Of a stretch of 64,000 nt of DNA, positions 1 through 57,356 are shown one piece after another. This stretch comes from Candidatus Thioglobus sp. NP1. Its GTDB lineage: Bacteria; Pseudomonadota; Gammaproteobacteria; PS1; Pseudothioglobaceae. The stretch's first letter is position 1; each line of letters opens with the position of its first letter. The position numbers and the translations under genes were made by a program. Below the pieces are notes generated by a model. The model did not search any database and had not been told where the DNA came from. It was given only the letters and a program-made list of their open reading frames with translations. The stretch is from the NCBI RefSeq assembly GCF_003326015.1, contig NZ_CP023860.1, forward strand, positions 868,001 to 932,000. The letters are read 5' to 3'.

Positions 1-186
1 CCTTTTAACTATCGTGAAGATTATCATGCTGAATCTGCTTACCTTGTCTTGAATGACGAAGGATATTTTGTGTTAATTGGTAACCCTACGAAACCTATAT
101 GGATGGAACTTGACCAGGTTATTGAGGAAAACTTTGAAGATGAAGTGGGTGATGATAATGATGATCTTGATTTTGAAATGTTTTAG
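1..186 (+). CDS. C-terminal end of an unrecognised protein (partial)
   Basis: An open frame enters from the left edge in frame 1 and stops at a TAG ending at 186, giving 61 residues. The visible part has an alternating hydrophobic stretch (AYLVLNDEGYFVLIGN) that could form beta strands. It ends in a strongly acidic tail rich in Asp and Glu. The next gene begins nine bases later on the same strand, so it is probably the first visible member of the ligase operon. I do not recognise the family and the N-terminus is outside the window. Confidence 0.6.
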   Translation, partial: PFNYREDYHAESAYLVLNDEGYFVLIGNPTKPIWMELDQVIEENFEDEVGDDNDDLDFEMF

Positions 187-41299: not shown

Positions 41300-41527
41300 T
41301 ATTAAAAGAGATTAATGATAAAAAGAATTGCTGATTTGAAGGTTTAATAAAGTGACAAAAGTCGACTATATTGCTAGGAGCTTGAAGGCAATTTTGTACT
41401 TTCTTTGTTATCAAAATGTTCACAATTTGTGAGTTATGATTTTCAACTTGAGATTATATAGGGATTGGTATCTAGAAGTAATTAATTATTGAAATTAATC
41501 GCTATAAAAATTTAAATAAGGTTTAGA
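41300..41527. other. Divergent promoter region between sucA and bmt
   Basis: AT-rich sequence without a convincing gene. It must hold the sucA promoter on the minus strand, but no element close to consensus could be assigned. The bmt promoter and leader follow and are listed separately. Confidence 0.5.
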
Positions 41528-41556
41528 TTGAACCTTGTTTGCAACCAATGTATACT
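41528..41556 (+). promoter_or_regulatory. Sigma-70 promoter of bmt
   Basis: TTGAAC at 41528-41533 and TATACT at 41551-41556, spaced by 17 bases, with TG just before the -10. Transcription would start near 41563, giving a leader of about 95 bases before the bmt ATG. Confidence 0.75.
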
Positions 41557-41576
41557 TACATTAATAATTAAAGGAA

Positions 41577-41657
41577 TAGTTCACCTTACGAACTGGGCGG
41601 TTGACCTATATTGTATGCCCTGGGATTTCCCTAAATTACTCAAAAAAGGAGCAAGTA
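41577..41657 (+). promoter_or_regulatory. Candidate SAM-II/SAM-V-type riboswitch in the bmt leader
   Basis: The leader holds a GGGC/GCCC stem (41595-41598 with 41617-41620) whose 18-base loop contains ACCTATATTG. Three bases of that loop (CCT, 41605-41607) can pair with AGG at 41647-41649, which is part of the ribosome site AGGAG. An A-rich strand lies just before it. The same plan, with a hairpin loop carrying UAUUG and a pseudoknot to a 3' purine-rich strand after A-rich linkers, is that of SAM-II and its marine relative SAM-V. These turn off methionine genes when SAM is high. The downstream gene makes methionine from homocysteine. A GTTC/GAAC hairpin precedes it. I fitted this by eye only. 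Confidence 0.5.
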
Positions 41658-42722
41658 ATGCCCCCTAAATATAAAAAATTTAAAACCTTATCTAGAGGTA
41701 GTTCTTCGAATAATTTTCATAAACTTTTACAGCTGAAGAATCATATTCTTGCTGATGGTGCGACTGGGACTAATCTATTTGATATGGGGCTTGAGACTGG
41801 AAATCCACCAGAACCCTGGAATTTATTTCATAAAGAGAAGATACGTTCTTTACATCAGGGTTTTGTTAATGCTGGCTCAGATTTGTTCCTAACAAATAGT
41901 TTTGGTGGAACATCATTTAGGCTGAAATTACATAATCATGAAAATAAAGTTTTTGAATTCAATAAGGCTGCTGGCATTATTGCTCGAGAAGTTGCAGATA
42001 AAGCAGAACGATTAGTAGTTGTTGCAGGCTCAATGGGTCCAACAGGAGAAATGATTGAACCCCATGGTTTGATGACCTCCAAAGATGCAACAACAGCATT
42101 TAAGGCTCAAGCTGAGGGTTTAGTTGAGGGAGGTGTTGATGTGTTGTGGTTAGAAACTATGTACTCGATGGAGGAGTTAGAAGCTGCATTTGATGCAATT
42201 AAAGACTTTGGACTGCCAATTTGTGCAACGATGAGTTTTGATACTGCCGGTAAAACAATGATGGGAATTACTCCAAAAAATCTTGCTAGAAAATCTCAAG
42301 ATTTAGAATTAGCAGGATTTGGTGCTAATTGTGGAATTGGTGCTGCTGATCTTATTGCAACAATTAATGGTATAACTCAAAATGTAGACTCAAAGACAGT
42401 AGTTATTGCAAAAGCTAATTGTGGTATACCTGAATTTCATGATGGCAATATCCGCTACTCTGGGACTGAAAATCTGATGTCAAAATATGTAAAAATTGCA
42501 ATGGATTCTGGGGCAAAAATTATTGGTGGTTGTTGTGGAACAACTTTCAATCATATCAAAGCAATGCGAGAAGCCATGGACAATCATAAGGTCGCCTCTT
42601 TACCTACTCTAACTCAAATTGAAAGTAGGGTAGGACCATTATCAAAAGGATCTAAGGCTATTTTAAAGGATGATGATTCAATTCCAACTAGGCAAAGAAG
42701 AAGTCGAAGGAATAGGATATAA
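41658..42722 (+). CDS. bmt: Betaine-homocysteine S-methyltransferase
   Basis: This zinc enzyme moves a methyl group from glycine betaine to homocysteine, making methionine and dimethylglycine. The 354-residue protein has LADGATGTNLFDMGL, TNSFGGTSFRLKLH, GSMGPTGEM, TMSFDTAGKTMMG, and the zinc ligands in GANCG and GGCCGTT. These match alphaproteobacterial-type Bmt, not the B12-dependent enzyme. The start is the ATG at 41658 after AGGAG; earlier in-frame starts fall in the riboswitch candidate. A short basic tail ends the protein. It heads the methylated-amine island. Confidence 0.87.
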   Translation: MPPKYKKFKTLSRGSSSNNFHKLLQLKNHILADGATGTNLFDMGLETGNPPEPWNLFHKEKIRSLHQGFVNAGSDLFLTNSFGGTSFRLKLHNHENKVFEFNKAAGIIAREVADKAERLVVVAGSMGPTGEMIEPHGLMTSKDATTAFKAQAEGLVEGGVDVLWLETMYSMEELEAAFDAIKDFGLPICATMSFDTAGKTMMGITPKNLARKSQDLELAGFGANCGIGAADLIATINGITQNVDSKTVVIAKANCGIPEFHDGNIRYSGTENLMSKYVKIAMDSGAKIIGGCCGTTFNHIKAMREAMDNHKVASLPTLTQIESRVGPLSKGSKAILKDDDSIPTRQRRSRRNRI

Positions 42723-51547: not shown

Positions 51548-52489
51548 ATGAATAAGTTTACAAGTAAGGTAGCTGCAGCTGCTTTAACGATGACTTTAGC
51601 TTCTGTATCTGGTCAAGCACTTGCTGCTGACTCTTCGAAGCCAATTGTCATTCCTACACATAACTGGTCAAGCCAAGTTGTTATGGCATATGTTATTGGT
51701 GGTATTTTTGAGAGCATGGGTAACAATGTAGAATATGTTCCTGCTGACTCACAAGCAGTATATGAAGCTATCCGTAATGGAGACGTAACTATTTCACATG
51801 AAGTATGGCAGTCAGCATTTGGTGCGTCTTTCTATAATGCAATGGAAAAAGGTGGAATTGTCGATGCAGGTAACCATGCAGCAATGACCCTTGAAGAGAT
51901 GGGTGTTCCACAATGGGTTGTGGACGAAAACCTATGTCCAGGACTTCCAAACTGGGAAGCACTAAAAGACTGTAAAGATGTCTTTGTTACTGCAGACTCA
52001 GGTGGTAAAGGTCGTTGGTTAGAAGGACCACAAAGTTGGCATGGTAACCTTATGCCAGAGCGTATTGCTGCGTTAGGTCTTGGTGATGACTATATGGTTA
52101 AGTTTGCTGGTGGTGCAGATGCATTATGGGCTGATTTAGCTGCTGCTAAGAAAGAAGGACGAGGAACAATTGTCTTTAACTGGACTCCAAACTTTACAGA
52201 TGCTGATGGATTTGCATTCATTGAATTCCCTGAGTACTACGATGGTTGTAGAGTTGTTGATGGTGGTGATGGTGCTTGTGGATCTCCAAAAGGTTGGTTG
52301 AAAAAAGCGGCTAACTATAAGTTCCCTAAGACACATCCAGCTGCTTATACAGCTTTCTCAAAGATGTCTTTCACAACAACTCATATTGGTCAAATGGCCG
52401 CACTTGTTGACGTTGATGGCATGAGCCACCAAGATGCTGCAGCTGCATGGCTTGCTGCTAATCAGGATGTTGTTTCAGCATTTAAATAA
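51548..52489 (+). CDS. proX: Betaine/proline-type ABC transporter substrate-binding protein
   Basis: The 313-residue protein has a signal peptide (MNKFTSKVAAAALTMTLASVSGQALAA) and an OpuAC fold: KPIVIPTHNWSSQVVMAYVIGG, DSQAVYEAIRNGDVTISHEVWQ, and a Trp-rich region (VQ..WVVDENLC, GRWLEGPQSWHG) that usually clamps quaternary amines. It is free in the periplasm. An AAAGGAG ribosome site precedes it. A strong hairpin after it separates it from the ATPase and permease genes. Glycine betaine is the likeliest ligand; proline betaine or others are possible. Confidence 0.85.
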   Translation: MNKFTSKVAAAALTMTLASVSGQALAADSSKPIVIPTHNWSSQVVMAYVIGGIFESMGNNVEYVPADSQAVYEAIRNGDVTISHEVWQSAFGASFYNAMEKGGIVDAGNHAAMTLEEMGVPQWVVDENLCPGLPNWEALKDCKDVFVTADSGGKGRWLEGPQSWHGNLMPERIAALGLGDDYMVKFAGGADALWADLAAAKKEGRGTIVFNWTPNFTDADGFAFIEFPEYYDGCRVVDGGDGACGSPKGWLKKAANYKFPKTHPAAYTAFSKMSFTTTHIGQMAALVDVDGMSHQDAAAAWLAANQDVVSAFK

Positions 52490-52540
52490 GGCTTATATAG
52501 CTTAGACTTCTTTATTTTTTAAGAAGTTTATTAGTAATTT

Positions 52541-52578
52541 AAATCTCTCCCCTAGGCTTTTTCAGCTAGGGGAGATTT
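52541..52578 (+). terminator. Hairpin between the binding protein and the ATPase genes
   Basis: AAATCTC and CCCTAG on the left arm (52541-52555, with a two-base bulge) pair with CTAGGGGAGATTT on the right (52566-52578). A T-run is not present, but the stem is strong. It could keep proX mRNA stable and more abundant than the downstream genes. A second, weaker hairpin (AGACTTCTT with AAGAAGTTT) lies just before it. Confidence 0.65.
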
Positions 52579-52691
52579 ATTATGTCCTTTAAAAAAACTT
52601 TAGTTAGAATTACCTACTAATAACTTTCAGAAAGAAGGTATTTTTTTGTATACTACAGTTATAAGATTTAAATCAATTTTGGAACTTTTAT

Positions 52692-53753
52692 ATGACAATT
52701 AAAGAAAATTCTATCCACAGTAAACAACCAGTCATCAAGTGTGACTCAGTCTATAAAATTTTCGGTGATAATGCAAAAAAATTATTGCAAGAAGCTAACG
52801 GTAGGGTTGATGCTCAAGAATTTCAAGATGCTGGCTGCGTAGTTGGTGTAAACAGTGCCTCATTTGAGGTATATGAAGGAGAGATGCTGGTTGTCATGGG
52901 TCTTTCAGGCTCAGGTAAATCTACGCTACTTAGATGTATCTCAAGGCTAACAGATACAACTGCTGGAAATATATACATTGATGGTGAAGACTTGCTTGCA
53001 TTAAACTCGAAAGAGCTTATTGAGCTAAGAAGAAATAAAATGGGAATGGTGTTCCAAAGCTTTGCATTGTTGCCCCATAAAACTGTTTTAGAAAATATTG
53101 CCTTCCCTCTTCAAGTTAAGGGAAGTAGTACTGATGACAGTATGAAAAGAGCGATGGAGATGGTGGAGCTTGTTGGTCTTACAGGTCGTGAAAACTACTT
53201 CCCTAGAGAGCTTTCTGGTGGTCAGCAGCAGCGAGTTGGGATTGCTCGATCATTAGCCGTAGAGCCAGATATTTGGTTCTTAGATGAGCCATTTTCGGCT
53301 TTAGATCCTCTGATTCGTAAAGAAATGCAAGATGAATTTTTGAGGCTACAGGGTGTTCTTAATAAAACAATTTTATTTGTTACCCATGATTTTGATGAAG
53401 CCCTAAGACTTGCTGATAGGATTGCAATTATGAAGGATGGTATTATTGAGCAATTAGATACTCCAGCTAATATTGTTTTAAATCCCGCAACTGAATATGT
53501 TCGTAAGTTTACTGAAGAAGTTCCTAGAGAAAAGGTTCTAAAGATTGAGTCAGTAATGGATCCTGTGGGTAGCACTGATGAAGAGTTAAGTAAACTTCAG
53601 GTTTCTAAAGACGCAATTATTGAAACTGTTGCGGAAGAAGTGCTAAGTGAACAAAAGCCAGTAGCTGTATTAGATGAAAATAATAATATAGTTGGTGTTT
53701 TAAATTGCTCAACTATTATTCATGTCCTTTTTGGTGATCGCTCTAAATCATAA
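52692..53753 (+). CDS. proV: Betaine/proline-type ABC transporter ATPase
   Basis: The 353-residue protein has an N-terminal extension, then Walker A GLSGSGKST, Q-loop FQSFALLPH, signature LSGGQQQRVGIARSL, Walker B IWFLDEPF and the H-loop THD. It resembles ProV/OpuAA. The C-terminal part (about 285-353) looks like a shortened or single CBS-type domain (VAVLDENNNIVGVLNCSTIIHVLF). Two CBS domains are usual in OpuA-type sensors. A TATACT lies upstream at 52639-52644. The gene is followed by the permease after 18 bases. Confidence 0.85.
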   Translation: MTIKENSIHSKQPVIKCDSVYKIFGDNAKKLLQEANGRVDAQEFQDAGCVVGVNSASFEVYEGEMLVVMGLSGSGKSTLLRCISRLTDTTAGNIYIDGEDLLALNSKELIELRRNKMGMVFQSFALLPHKTVLENIAFPLQVKGSSTDDSMKRAMEMVELVGLTGRENYFPRELSGGQQQRVGIARSLAVEPDIWFLDEPFSALDPLIRKEMQDEFLRLQGVLNKTILFVTHDFDEALRLADRIAIMKDGIIEQLDTPANIVLNPATEYVRKFTEEVPREKVLKIESVMDPVGSTDEELSKLQVSKDAIIETVAEEVLSEQKPVAVLDENNNIVGVLNCSTIIHVLFGDRSKS

Positions 53754-53771
53754 TATCTAGATAAACTGACT

Positions 53772-56183
53772 ATGGAATTTTTAAAAAATAACCCTAAGCT
53801 ACTGCAATTTGTTATTGTTTTAATTGTATTTTTTATTCTTATGTCAATGACAGGAGAATATCACGATATTATTTTGTTACGTGATGGTTTTGCTAATAAA
53901 GTTAATTCGGGAGAAATCGATGCCATAGTTGGTTTTTCGGAGTCATTTAGAATGCTTCTTAGTGGTCAACTCCCACCTCAATTAGTAAGACTTCCAGAAT
54001 TAAACTTTTTTAATCCAGTTACTGATACTTCATTAGTATTTAAAATCATAGCTCTCTTGACTATTCTTGGCTTACTATTTAAAAACTTTCTTTTGACTAC
54101 TAAGGTGACTAGAGATGTTCCAATTGTCTGGTTTAAACAAAACTGGACAAAGTTGTTTGTCTATATCCCTGCCGGAATTATTGTTGGCTTTTTAATCCTA
54201 CCAACACTAATGAATTGGTTTTTTGATGACATCACTACAAGTAGTTTTTGGTCAATGAACCAAATCATTAATGATTCCGCAGAATTTGTAATGTACGAAT
54301 GGTGGCCGGTTGAAATTTACGATCCAGAGATTGAAGATTATGACGATTCTGCAATGATTAAGGAGATAACTAGAGGTTTTTCTCGGTCTATTCTCTTTGC
54401 TATTGAGTTTATTCGTGAGATCTTATTGGGTGGAATTAAAACAATTGTTGCCTTTACAAGCTGGGAGTGGTCTGATGCTAATGAATGGGCAGTTTGGCCT
54501 GGACTTCCTTGGACTGTTGTTTCGGCTTCAGCAATTATGATTGGCTATTATTTAAGTGGAAGAGGTTTGGCAATATTGGCTGCCTTTTCTACCATATATA
54601 TCAGTGTTTTTGGACAGTGGGAGCCTTCCATGGAAACACTCTCATTTGTTCTAGTTGCTGCTCCAATATCTTTTATTTTGGGTCTAAGTCTTGGCGTTTG
54701 GGCCTATAAGAGTAAAACAACTGAAACAGTCTTAATGCCTCTGCTAAACGTAGCACAGACAATGCCCCATTTCTCTTATCTTGTTCCAGTAATGGTTTTC
54801 TTTGGTGTAGGTGATCATGCAGGCGCTATAGCAACTATTATATTTGCTACACCCCCAATGATCAGGCTGACACTTCTTGGCTTAAAAAAGGTTTCTCCTG
54901 AAGTTCTTGATGCGGGGATGATGAGCGGCTGTAATAACTATCAACTGATGTCTAAAGTTTTAATTCCCTCAGCTAGAAGAGATATTCTGATTGGCGTAAA
55001 CCAGGTAATTATGCAGTGCCTTGCGATGGCAGTAATTGCCTCCTTTATTGGCGCAAAAGGTTTAGGCTTTAACCTTCTTCTTGCCCTAAATCAGCTAAAA
55101 ATAGGCCAAGCTTTAGAGCTTGGTATTTGCATTGTACTTATCGCGGTATTTTTAGATAAACTTTCTCTAGCATGGGCTGATAAGCAAACTGATTATTTTG
55201 CTGACCTTCCTTTTCTTCAACGCCATAAATATTCATTCTCTTTTCTTGTGATTTTGTTTGTTGGAATTTTATTGGCATATCTTGGTACGTTTTTGTTTAA
55301 GGATGGAATCAATTATCTATATATGATTCCTCACAACAAGGGTTACACATCTCAACTCTTCTGGCAGTCGGGTGTTGACTGGATTTGGGATACTTTTTTC
55401 TTTTCGTTGCAGGGGTTTAATACTTGGTTAATTCAGGGTGTCCTTATTCCAATGAAGACGGCTTACCTCTCGATGCCAGTTATAGCAACCTTTACCCTTG
55501 TAATGGGCATTGGCTATATTATTGGTGGAATCAGATCTGCGTTGGTAGTTGGCGGCTTTTTATTAGTAATTGCTCTTCTTCAATGGTGGGAGAGAGCTCT
55601 TATTACTGCCTATATGGCAAGCTTTGGCGTTCTTGTGTCTGGTTTAATTGGAATAACTGTTGGCTCGCTTTGTGCTCGAAGTAAGATAGCTAGTAAAGTT
55701 ATTTTATTAGTTTGTGATACTTTCCAAACATTTCCTTCTTTTATTTACTTAATACCTGTAATTATGCTTTTTGGAGTGACTGATACCTCTGTATTAATTG
55801 CTGTTATTGTATATGCAACTATTCCAGCAACACGCTACACAGTTGAGGGCCTCACAAGCGTTCCACAAGCACTTCAAGATGCTGGTTCAATGTCAGGTGT
55901 TAACCGAATGCAGAGGTGGCTTAAAATAGAGATGCCTCTAGCATTACCTCATATTATGTTAGGTCTTAATCAAACGGTTGTTTTTGCCCTATTTATGGTC
56001 ATCATTGGAGCAATGATTGGAACAGATGATTTAGGTCAGTTTATCTTGAAGGCTTTATCTGATAAACAAGGAATTGGTAATGGATTGTTGTTGGGACTCT
56101 GTGTTGCATTTATTGGACTGGCAGTAGATCATCTTATTCAAACTTGGGCTAAACAAAGAAGAAAATTATTAGGCATAGATTAA
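53772..56183 (+). CDS. proW: Fused double permease of the betaine/proline-type ABC transporter
   Basis: The 803-residue membrane protein contains two binding-protein-dependent permease domains in one chain: the first around 260-480 (EAA-like DAGMMSGCNNYQLMSKVLIPSARRDI) and the second around 580-790 (DAGSMSGVNRMQRWLKIEMPLALPHI). Both halves carry the loop that contacts ProV. The first 200 residues add extra helices and a soluble segment. Most ProW proteins have one domain and dimerise; here the dimer is covalent. Converges with the Rieske gene across six bases. Confidence 0.88.
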   Translation: MEFLKNNPKLLQFVIVLIVFFILMSMTGEYHDIILLRDGFANKVNSGEIDAIVGFSESFRMLLSGQLPPQLVRLPELNFFNPVTDTSLVFKIIALLTILGLLFKNFLLTTKVTRDVPIVWFKQNWTKLFVYIPAGIIVGFLILPTLMNWFFDDITTSSFWSMNQIINDSAEFVMYEWWPVEIYDPEIEDYDDSAMIKEITRGFSRSILFAIEFIREILLGGIKTIVAFTSWEWSDANEWAVWPGLPWTVVSASAIMIGYYLSGRGLAILAAFSTIYISVFGQWEPSMETLSFVLVAAPISFILGLSLGVWAYKSKTTETVLMPLLNVAQTMPHFSYLVPVMVFFGVGDHAGAIATIIFATPPMIRLTLLGLKKVSPEVLDAGMMSGCNNYQLMSKVLIPSARRDILIGVNQVIMQCLAMAVIASFIGAKGLGFNLLLALNQLKIGQALELGICIVLIAVFLDKLSLAWADKQTDYFADLPFLQRHKYSFSFLVILFVGILLAYLGTFLFKDGINYLYMIPHNKGYTSQLFWQSGVDWIWDTFFFSLQGFNTWLIQGVLIPMKTAYLSMPVIATFTLVMGIGYIIGGIRSALVVGGFLLVIALLQWWERALITAYMASFGVLVSGLIGITVGSLCARSKIASKVILLVCDTFQTFPSFIYLIPVIMLFGVTDTSVLIAVIVYATIPATRYTVEGLTSVPQALQDAGSMSGVNRMQRWLKIEMPLALPHIMLGLNQTVVFALFMVIIGAMIGTDDLGQFILKALSDKQGIGNGLLLGLCVAFIGLAVDHLIQTWAKQRRKLLGID

Positions 56184-56189
56184 AAAAAA

Positions 56190-57356
56190 CTAATTTTCTA
56201 AGGATCTAAAGTTTTTAATATGATTTGCAATCCAACGATGAAAACAATGCGTTGCGCTATCCATAGTTGGTGAGAATTTACCACCATCAAACATGATTCC
56301 TTTTCTGCCTCTTTGCATACCCTCTACAACACCAATATCTTCACTAAAAACGGTTTTCCAAAAGAGAGCATTGGAATCAATAAGTGGTTTTAATTCTGGC
56401 ATTTCTTCTGGTTTCTTGGCGTAATAAAGTGAAACATGTTCAACTGTTTTATTAGTTGCAATAGGTTCAATAATTATTGAGAAAAAATGATCTCTATGAG
56501 TTCCTAAAAGCACATTGGGATAGAGAGCTATATACTCACTGGCTTGATCCCATTTATTAGATAGACCTTCAAAATCAGGGAATACTGATCCATCTTCACT
56601 TTTGATTTGGTTGTAAACATATGAGCCTTGTCCTGAAAAGAAACCTGGCTCTTCAATATGGTAGTGATCCTCAACACTTGAAGTAATATTTAGCTCAGGA
56701 TGAACCCAGGGTAAGTGATAGCTCTCACAATAGTTCTCAACAGCTAGCTTCCAGTTAGTATTAAGATTTAGAGTGAACGAAGATGTTTCACCACCATGAT
56801 AAATTGGTTTATCAAATTCAGACCATCTCTCAATTGTTTTGGCTGCATAATCAGTAAATTCTTGAGCATTATTAGAGATGTTGACAAAGATAATATCTTG
56901 CCAGACAGCGGATTTTATTTTAAAGAGTCCTAGCTCATCATTTTTTATTGCTTTATGGGTATTAATATCAGTTCCACCTACCATTGGTGTGGCGCATAAT
57001 TCACCTTTAAGGTTATAGCACCAGCTATGATATGGACAAGTAATTAGTCCTGATAGATTTTTCGGTTCTTCTATTAAAATCATTCCTCGATGCCGACAGG
57101 TATTTTGGAAAACATTAATATTATTATTCTCATCACGAGCCATTAATAATGGCATATCTACAAAACTCATAGGTTTTATATCGCCTGTATTAGGAATATC
57201 TTTTCCAAATCCAATGGCTGACCAGTTGTTAAATAGGATTGCTTTTTTTTCCTCATCAAAAACGGCATCACTTATATAGTGCTCATTAGGAAGACCTTTA
57301 GCCATAGCTGTTGATGTTAAAACTGAATCAAGATTGCTGTGTGGAGTCGTTGCCAT
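56190..57356 (-). CDS. Rieske non-heme iron oxygenase, alpha subunit
   Basis: The 388-residue protein has a Rieske centre (CRHRG with CPYHSW, C-x-H and C-x2-H) and a mononuclear iron site in ENYCESYHLPWVHPEL plus a later acidic residue. These are hallmarks of the ring-hydroxylating family branch that demethylates quaternary amines (GbcA-type betaine, carnitine, stachydrine, choline). Placed between a betaine transporter and amine oxidoreductases, betaine or a similar compound is the likely substrate. The reductase subunit is not visible nearby. It is transcribed convergently to the transporter. Confidence 0.85.
   Translation of the reverse strand: MATTPHSNLDSVLTSTAMAKGLPNEHYISDAVFDEEKKAILFNNWSAIGFGKDIPNTGDIKPMSFVDMPLLMARDENNNINVFQNTCRHRGMILIEEPKNLSGLITCPYHSWCYNLKGELCATPMVGGTDINTHKAIKNDELGLFKIKSAVWQDIIFVNISNNAQEFTDYAAKTIERWSEFDKPIYHGGETSSFTLNLNTNWKLAVENYCESYHLPWVHPELNITSSVEDHYHIEEPGFFSGQGSYVYNQIKSEDGSVFPDFEGLSNKWDQASEYIALYPNVLLGTHRDHFFSIIIEPIATNKTVEHVSLYYAKKPEEMPELKPLIDSNALFWKTVFSEDIGVVEGMQRGRKGIMFDGGKFSPTMDSATHCFHRWIANHIKNFRSLEN

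Follow-up and report, generated by a model that had tools for sequence, protein, structure and literature searches.

A SAM-V-type pseudoknot leader before a homocysteine S-methyltransferase gene of a SUP05-type gammaproteobacterium, most probably captured from mobile DNA

Riboswitches are usually regarded as old, vertically inherited partners of metabolic genes. The leader of a homocysteine S-methyltransferase gene (here bhmT) in Candidatus Thioglobus sp. NP1, a SUP05-type gammaproteobacterium and not a member of SAR11, raises the question of whether it contains a SAM-sensing riboswitch, of which class, and from where. The leader is located between the divergent sucA gene and bhmT, in a window (the whole stretch of DNA analysed) of 64,000 nucleotides. 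Judged from its sequence, the region 41577-41657, which lies downstream of a promoter-like site and directly upstream of the ATG at 41658, is a pseudoknot leader of the SAM-V type (Table 1). An earlier note, made by eye from the same DNA, was right on the kind of element; its confined distribution and what is most probably an island or phage source are added here. The founding paper on SAM-V is reportedly Poiata 2009.

Table 1. Positions of the leader elements and of the downstream gene in the window.
Feature	Position (strand)	Details	Basis
Promoter-like site TTGAAC-17-TATACT	41528..41556 (+)	TTGAAC 41528-41533, TATACT 41551-41556	read in sequence
P0 hairpin GTTC-ACCTTAC-GAAC	41579..41593 (+)	beyond the Rfam model	read in sequence
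P1 5' strand GGGC	41595..41598 (+)	partner 41617-41620	covariation
Third strand GGUUG	41599..41603 (+)	Rfam consensus AuUUG; subtype G7G8	
Loop CCU (P2a)	41605..41607 (+)	complementary to AGG 41647-41649	mechanism from PMC6061858
P2 5' strand AUUGUAU	41610..41616 (+)	A18-U24 in metY numbering	our mapping
P1 3' strand GCCC	41617..41620 (+)	partner 41595-41598	covariation
P3 hairpin GGG-AUUU-CCC	41622..41631 (+)		minimum-energy fold
P2 3' strand UUAC and U47	41636..41640 (+)	P2 as 41611-41616 with 41636-41643	our placement
Extra C after U47	41641 (+)	typical of G7G8 subtype; models fit a CA insertion here	
Ribosome site AGGAG	41647..41651 (+)		read in sequence
Homocysteine S-methyltransferase gene (annotated betaine-homocysteine methyltransferase)	41658..42722 (+)		PF02574 2e-59, NF005718
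16 extra codons MPPKYKKFKTLSRGSS	41658..41705 (+)	missing from orthologs	alignment of 24 leaders

In the 601 bases 41300-41900, the Rfam SAM_V model (RF01826) matched 41586..41654 (+) end to end (model 1-66 of 66), with 36.8 bits and an E value of 2.8e-4, the top of eight Rfam matches up to E 10; when the whole genome was scanned, the E value was 1.9e-4. The gathering cut-off of this model, the inclusion rule of its curators, is 41 bits, and a scan of the 64-kb window at Rfam gathering thresholds returned zero matches. As the score lies below this cut-off, we name the leader a SAM-V variant and not an Rfam member. Related elements exceed it, with 50.9, 48.5, 44.7 and 43.0 bits, and 48.2 bits for an element on phage DNA. 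The layout had been likened to both SAM-II and SAM-V, with a covariance-model scan as the check: the scan bears out the SAM-V half of the likeness, short of the cut-off, and not the SAM-II half, as SAM-II (RF00521) was absent among the eight matches.

We additionally built a covariance model (R2) from 15 related elements, of 14 other genomes and one phage contig, without this genome, omitting one weak element (G020) and two of another family (L033 and L098). The gathering of these training elements was partly seeded, through a model and a pattern, by this genome's copies, meaning that the rows are independent and the gathering is not. R2 gave the bhmT leader 80.2 bits (E 5e-15, 41577..41660 (+)), and the second-best place in the window 11.6 bits. 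Two other leaders of the same genome scored 90.4 bits (before metZ) and 102.4 bits (before an island gene), while the highest score on 63 control loci (within the genus, 23 bhmT and 26 metZ loci; in other genera, 14 metZ loci) was 12.4 bits, with an E value of 5.9. With Rfam SAM_V, the metZ element obtained just 26.1 bits (E 3.1). A further model, R1, was built from 11 elements, this genome's copies among them. Together with the full-length SAM_V match, albeit under the Rfam cut-off, the R2 score upholds the SAM-V-like pseudoknot leader put forward in the earlier note and demonstrates its homology to SAM-V.

The hairpin that the earlier note had described, with a loop carrying ACCTATATTG, is present as P1, and the three loop bases said to face the ribosome site are indeed complementary to the AGG of AGGAG. 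In the SAM-V structure, as described in the available part of PMC6061858, helix P2a occupies this position. Complementarity of CCU/AGG, UCC/GGA or longer was found in 14/15 relatives, a count of very short matches uncorrected for chance. The predicted H-type pseudoknot of P1 and P2 is backed by covariation. In the 11-element alignment, which includes this leader, P1 and P2 contained 17 cells changed on both sides, a number reached by 0/500 shuffles, and slid structures contained at most 1; the variation comprised GC/AU/UA at one pair of P1 and CG/UA/UG at another, and GC/AU and CG/UA in P2. A 15-element alignment without this genome and with P0 included likewise gave 17 cells, 0/500 shuffles and no more than 2 in slid structures. 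The shuffles ignore relatedness, whereas the slid controls retain it. Counted as pairs, the 11-element alignment had 4 changed on both sides, which 47/500 shuffles also reached, and further pair types were fewer than in shuffles. The additional hairpin P0 retains all four pairs in 14/15 relatives, with two pairs broken in one (G009), one G-U in another (G003), and two pairs changed on both sides in the phage element (GCCC/GGGC).

We mapped the binding pocket in metY numbering, and found U9, U10, A18, U19, U20, G21, C46, U47 and the A run to be kept. Checked against the SAM-V pocket (U9, U20, A48, U47, A50 and U8), all bases were kept but U8, which is G, and an extra C follows U47; P2 pair 24-43 is U-U. 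In the known SAM-V structure, as far as the available text of PMC6061858 describes it, U47 pairs with the adenine of SAM, and U8 bonds to U47 as a pocket contact. Counted over the phage contig and the 18 elements of the order, third strands with GG (6 elements) always go with an extra pyrimidine and those with AU (13 elements) never do, and the linked GG and extra pyrimidine may represent a structural subtype. L098, a weak element from beyond the order, carries AG and lacks the insertion.

Other properties of the leader did not depart from chance. The minimum-energy fold shows P0, P1 and P3, but with a z value of 0.55, and with 138/200 shuffles folding at least as well, the folding energy is no better than that of shuffles; it therefore proves nothing, and was discarded as evidence. 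The site described in the earlier note as a strong promoter is present, although such patterns occur at chance level (3 in 461 bases, where shuffles average 2.6), and promoter strength was likewise set aside. The evidence that sets the element apart from chance is comparative. The sole terminator-like site in 41300-41760 lies on the opposite strand (41666-41646), and transcription attenuation was accordingly dropped. This minus-strand site, a stem with a T tail at 41646-41666 (1 found, 0.1 expected), overlaps the ribosome site and the start codon, and could either end antisense transcripts or be due to chance.

These observations bear on two readings in which the leader would not be a working SAM switch. 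It might be a decayed relic or a chance likeness devoid of function, as its score beneath the Rfam cut-off, the U-U mismatch in P2 and the chance-level folding energy would allow; against this, a model trained on other sequences recognises it strongly, and P1 pairs 27-54 and 30-51 and P2 pair 49-73 (alignment A3) differ from those of many relatives with pairing preserved, so that we give this reading next to no weight. Alternatively, the G7G8 third strand and the inserted pyrimidine could mark a switch with a changed ligand, given that GG and the insertion are strictly linked and that U8-U47 is a pocket contact. We consider this improbable, as the gene makes methionine, the rest of the pocket is kept, and the weak element with AG outside the order lacks the insertion.

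The start codon of bhmT is most likely the ATG at 41658, rather than the TTG at 41601 where the mechanical open reading frame starts. Concerning its product, the NCBIfam equivalog model for betaine-homocysteine methyltransferase (NF005718) was passed with 458.7 bits against a cut-off of 338, whereas the nearest solved chain is a methionine synthase module (1q7m, E 3.8e-39) rather than a true BHMT (1umy, E 1.3e-18); the enzyme name given in the earlier note is thus backed by the family model and not by the closest structures. From its sequence, this "Bmt" may instead be the homocysteine module of a split methionine synthase, similar to mtgE. The available part of PMC12478193 argues that the Sinorhizobium-type "Bhmt" is such a module (MtgE), with betaine-binding residues missing, and reports mtgC reads from Candidatus Thioglobus. 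The product expected with either identity is methionine. We additionally noted a glycine-betaine-type ABC transporter at 51548-56183 and a Rieske oxygenase at 56190-57356 in the window. In the alignment of 24 leaders, many orthologs have their native start at ATGAATAATTTT or ATGAACAATTTT, aligned with TCGAATAATTTT here; this bhmT starts 16 codons earlier than its orthologs, behind the putative riboswitch.

We compared the leader with known systems. With SAM-V of 'Candidatus Pelagibacter ubique' (RF01826; bhmT, metY and mmuM), it shares the H-type pseudoknot with P1, P2 and P3, a third strand ending UUG, the UAUUGU motif, a bulged U before the A run, a loop able to pair with the ribosome site, its location right before the start codon, and a methionine gene downstream. 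It differs in the extra 5' hairpin P0, in G7G8 with the inserted C, in its score under the Rfam cut-off, in having its relatives mainly before unrelated island genes, and in its gammaproteobacterial host, where alphaproteobacteria and Bacteroidetes are named in the available part of PMC6061858. According to the same part of that source, SAM-II has its pseudoknot plan and pocket in common with SAM-V; the leader here, in contrast, gave no SAM-II match to E 10 in 41300-41900 and has no same-strand terminator-like site in 41300-41760. The tandem SAM-II/SAM-V leader of SAR11 bhmT, as the available parts of PMC5069961 and PMC2704228 present it, shares the SAM-V part before a same-named gene, whereas no SAM-II part was found here and the protein here is nearer to methionine synthase modules.

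The element was found to be narrowly distributed at methionine genes. Matches to bhmT were identified in 24/29 genomes of the genus, this genome counted, and R2 found the element at 0/23 of the orthologous leaders read; the paired positions, whose conservation in related genomes had been named as a check, are kept and covary in related elements, while the element itself is absent from the orthologous bhmT leaders read in the genus. A DNA search of the same genome with 41560-41712 identified a 79% match before metZ (O-succinylhomoserine sulfhydrylase), and the genome contains three SAM-V-type leaders, at bhmT, at metZ and at a gene of a tRNA-Lys island. All 29 genomes of the genus have metZ matches, and, since one is a paralog (G009) and another is truncated (G013), 26 other metZ leaders could be read, none of which contained the element. 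The purF-metZ gap is 137 nt here, with the SAM-V-type element inside, and 8-22 nt in the 26 orthologs. Across the remaining 82 genomes of the order, R1 detected the element at neither metZ nor bhmT; the filters used here were stricter and miss some weak matches. Under strict filters that likewise miss weak matches, Rfam SAM_V was found in this genome alone among 398 of the phylum; in the class, Rfam SAM_V gave matches in 2/369 genomes and R1 in 3/369. Among the genomes read, a SAM-V variant at two methionine genes occurs only in this species. Among the open-licence papers listed, no title or abstract opening dealt with SAM-V in SUP05 or Thioglobus, or with the transfer of riboswitch leaders from islands to genes of the host.

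Elsewhere in the order, the relatives of this leader are found in a different setting. R1 identified 18 elements in 12/83 genomes, one of them weak (G020, 38.7 bits). Of the 18, 15 are followed by unrelated genes, and several of these lie on islands with integrase or restriction genes. The genes downstream encode a family that we call OrfA (7), the OrfB family (2), Sel1-repeat-like proteins (2, of which the one checked has PF08238), a protein of about 50 residues (2), an HD-like protein (1, by eye), a 69-residue protein (1), metZ (1) and bhmT (1); the remaining one is the G020 element, downstream of which no open frame of at least 30 residues was found. Elements are clustered, two or three at a time, in genomes G019, G022 and G400. 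On a 7,816-base contig of G019, a stretch of some 1.4 kb contains three SAM-V-type leaders (L083, L090 and L093), all pointing the same way and each followed by a different small gene, an arrangement resembling a string of riboswitch-led cassettes. One locus (L077) contains an integrase (PF00589), OrfA, a C5 DNA methylase and an NgoFVII-type restriction enzyme between two copies of tRNA-Pro; a methylase was also found in L072 and, by eye, in L075. The island in this species' own genome comprises tRNA-Lys, an integrase-like gene, OrfA with its element and a methylase-like gene downstream, the integrase-like and methylase-like genes being named by eye.

We additionally identified an element on phage DNA, at positions 54-120 (-) of locus L078, on the IMG/VR contig IMGVR_UViG_3300006080_000025, with a SAM-V score of 48.2 bits, over the Rfam cut-off. 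The contig has terminase, helicase and HNH genes, and the element precedes a truncated gene at its end. A glutamine riboswitch of the methylophage Melnitz (PMC9004378) similarly places a riboswitch class of streamlined marine bacteria on phage DNA, although it belongs to another ligand class and the available part of that source describes no transfer to host metabolic genes. A search of viral contigs with a cassette-type pattern gave no match, and a Synechococcus phage sequence resembling a portion of the leader (E 0.3) was attributed to chance.

With respect to ancestry, a MetZ tree of 41 rows, 14 of them outgroup, and with G009 and G013 omitted, nests this genome within the genus, with forks supported at 97/91 and 100/96. 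Four branches, one of them (G017) with a weak placement, diverge before it, and it stands next to a clade of 15; this is a single-gene tree and not a species tree. Due to this nesting, an ancestral element would require several parallel losses at metZ. A BhmT tree of the genus only, from which the split hits of G007 and G009 were omitted, gave no supported position for this genome; this, and the reading of bhmT in the genus only, lowers our confidence in the best explanation. The branches of this genome are long in both trees (MetZ 0.23, BhmT 0.48), as if the two genes had undergone faster evolution or partial exchange in this lineage.

Each of the two leaders is closer to island elements than to the other. 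The core of the bhmT leader is 87.2% identical to an OrfA leader (G446) and 85.9% to an HD-like leader (G400), and that of the metZ leader 96.0% to the leader of a 50-residue gene (G019); the bhmT and metZ leaders, which belong to different subtypes, are 77.9% identical in their cores. Two captures are thus likelier than one copy spreading within the genome. The element tree is short, with the bhmT leaf weakly placed (0.575), and the multiple alignment behind it misaligns the bhmT tail and ranks an OrfA leader of G019 first for bhmT (69.9%). Upstream, likeness to island elements was small, with lowest shuffle fractions of 0.03 (metZ) and 0.075 (bhmT) and with differing promoters, so that the transfer vehicle is not seen. 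Co-transfer of promoter or coding sequence with the leader was rejected, as there was no clear likeness upstream or downstream, and a downstream likeness between metZ and bhmT (fractions 0.01 and 0.015) was set aside as A-rich. Capture of two leaders from mobile DNA is our best reading of these comparisons.

Two other histories were weighed against such a capture. SAM-V leaders at bhmT and metZ could be ancestral in the family and lost everywhere else: SAM-V precedes bhmT and metY in SAR11, a methionine gene being its usual place (PMC2704228, in its available part), and the outgroup leaders read were those of metZ in other genera and not of bhmT. However, the metZ leader would have to be lost in the outgroups, in the four earlier branches, one of them weakly placed, and in the sister clade, and the purF-metZ gap would have to revert to its short length within the genus; R1 finds none at either gene in the rest of the order, and the two leaders are of different subtypes. 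We therefore hold an ancestral origin to be very improbable. Homologous recombination with an unsampled organism whose metZ and bhmT were already preceded by SAM-V, without involvement of islands, would agree with the long branches of this genome in both trees and with the lack of clear likeness to island promoters. It is rather unlikely, as no other SAM-V at metZ or bhmT was found in the 83 genomes of the order (at filters that lose weak matches), and the nearest elements by identity are island leaders.

We consider it likely that the leader is a translational OFF-switch for SAM, of the SAM-V type, acquired in the lineage of this genome from SAM-V leaders that the family carries on mobile islands; three parts of this explanation are inferred, namely that SAM binds, that it switches the gene off, and which way the transfer ran. 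When SAM is bound, the third strand GGUUG would sit in the groove of P2 and the loop CCU would pair with the AGG of the ribosome site, so that the homocysteine methyltransferase would not be made; when SAM falls, the ribosome site would be free and homocysteine would be methylated to methionine. The complementarity of loop and ribosome site, and the lack of a same-strand terminator-like site in 41300-41760, are consistent with translational control. In the published model for SAM-V (PMC6061858, in its available part), SAM stabilises the P2 triplex, P2a forms and the ribosome site is hidden, and the available part of PMC5069961 reports that the products of SAM-V genes in SAR11, bhmT included, rise when sulfur is short. 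A second, independent capture would have brought an element of the other subtype before metZ, which makes homocysteine; with elements at both genes, two steps of the methionine route would answer to SAM.

A recognisable riboswitch class thus occurs mostly before unrelated genes of mobile islands, and at two methionine genes in one species only, as sampled. If the capture holds, this is a species-level case of metabolic genes acquiring riboswitch control from mobile DNA, showing how ready-made gene control can spread. More tentatively, SAM-V leaders could possibly serve the integrative islands and phages of marine gammaproteobacteria as portable control modules, turning on small, unrelated cargo genes, frequently adjacent to restriction-modification genes, in response to a drop in SAM, such as one caused by an incoming phage or by methylation; two methionine genes of one species would then each have taken up a leader of a different subtype from this pool, giving rise to a SAM regulon of mobile origin.

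The elements additionally provide the uncharacterised island genes with a testable signal, low SAM. The most frequent of these genes, OrfA, is a family of roughly 170-residue proteins that follow SAM-V leaders on islands, at seven loci including L001:1572-2081 and L072:6001-6510. The members tried had no match in Pfam, PHROGs, NCBIfam or PADLOC, and no relatives were found in viral contigs. An AlphaFold model (pLDDT 88) has a ferredoxin-like layout, and a Foldseek search had no hit with an E value of 0.001 or lower. With VIA-align, lyases of SAM and of SAM-AMP rank near the top (Z 5.0-6.3), including a SAM lyase (9lqd, Z 6.3, rmsd 4.5, 114 aligned) and a SAM-AMP lyase (9gad, Z 6.0, rmsd 5.6, 121 aligned), but unrelated folds equal them, and a protocadherin domain scores higher (Z 6.8, rmsd 3.3, 108 aligned).

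SAM-V-type elements in gammaproteobacteria are mostly beneath the Rfam cut-off. In another gammaproteobacterial family (that of G283, with genomes near 1 Mb), SAM-V matches below the cut-off, with E values up to 0.01, were found in 8/25 genomes (L033, L098-L105). At the two loci read (L033, and L098, which only R1 found), the element precedes a small uncharacterised gene that adjoins a gene identified by eye as fatty-acid-hydroxylase-like.
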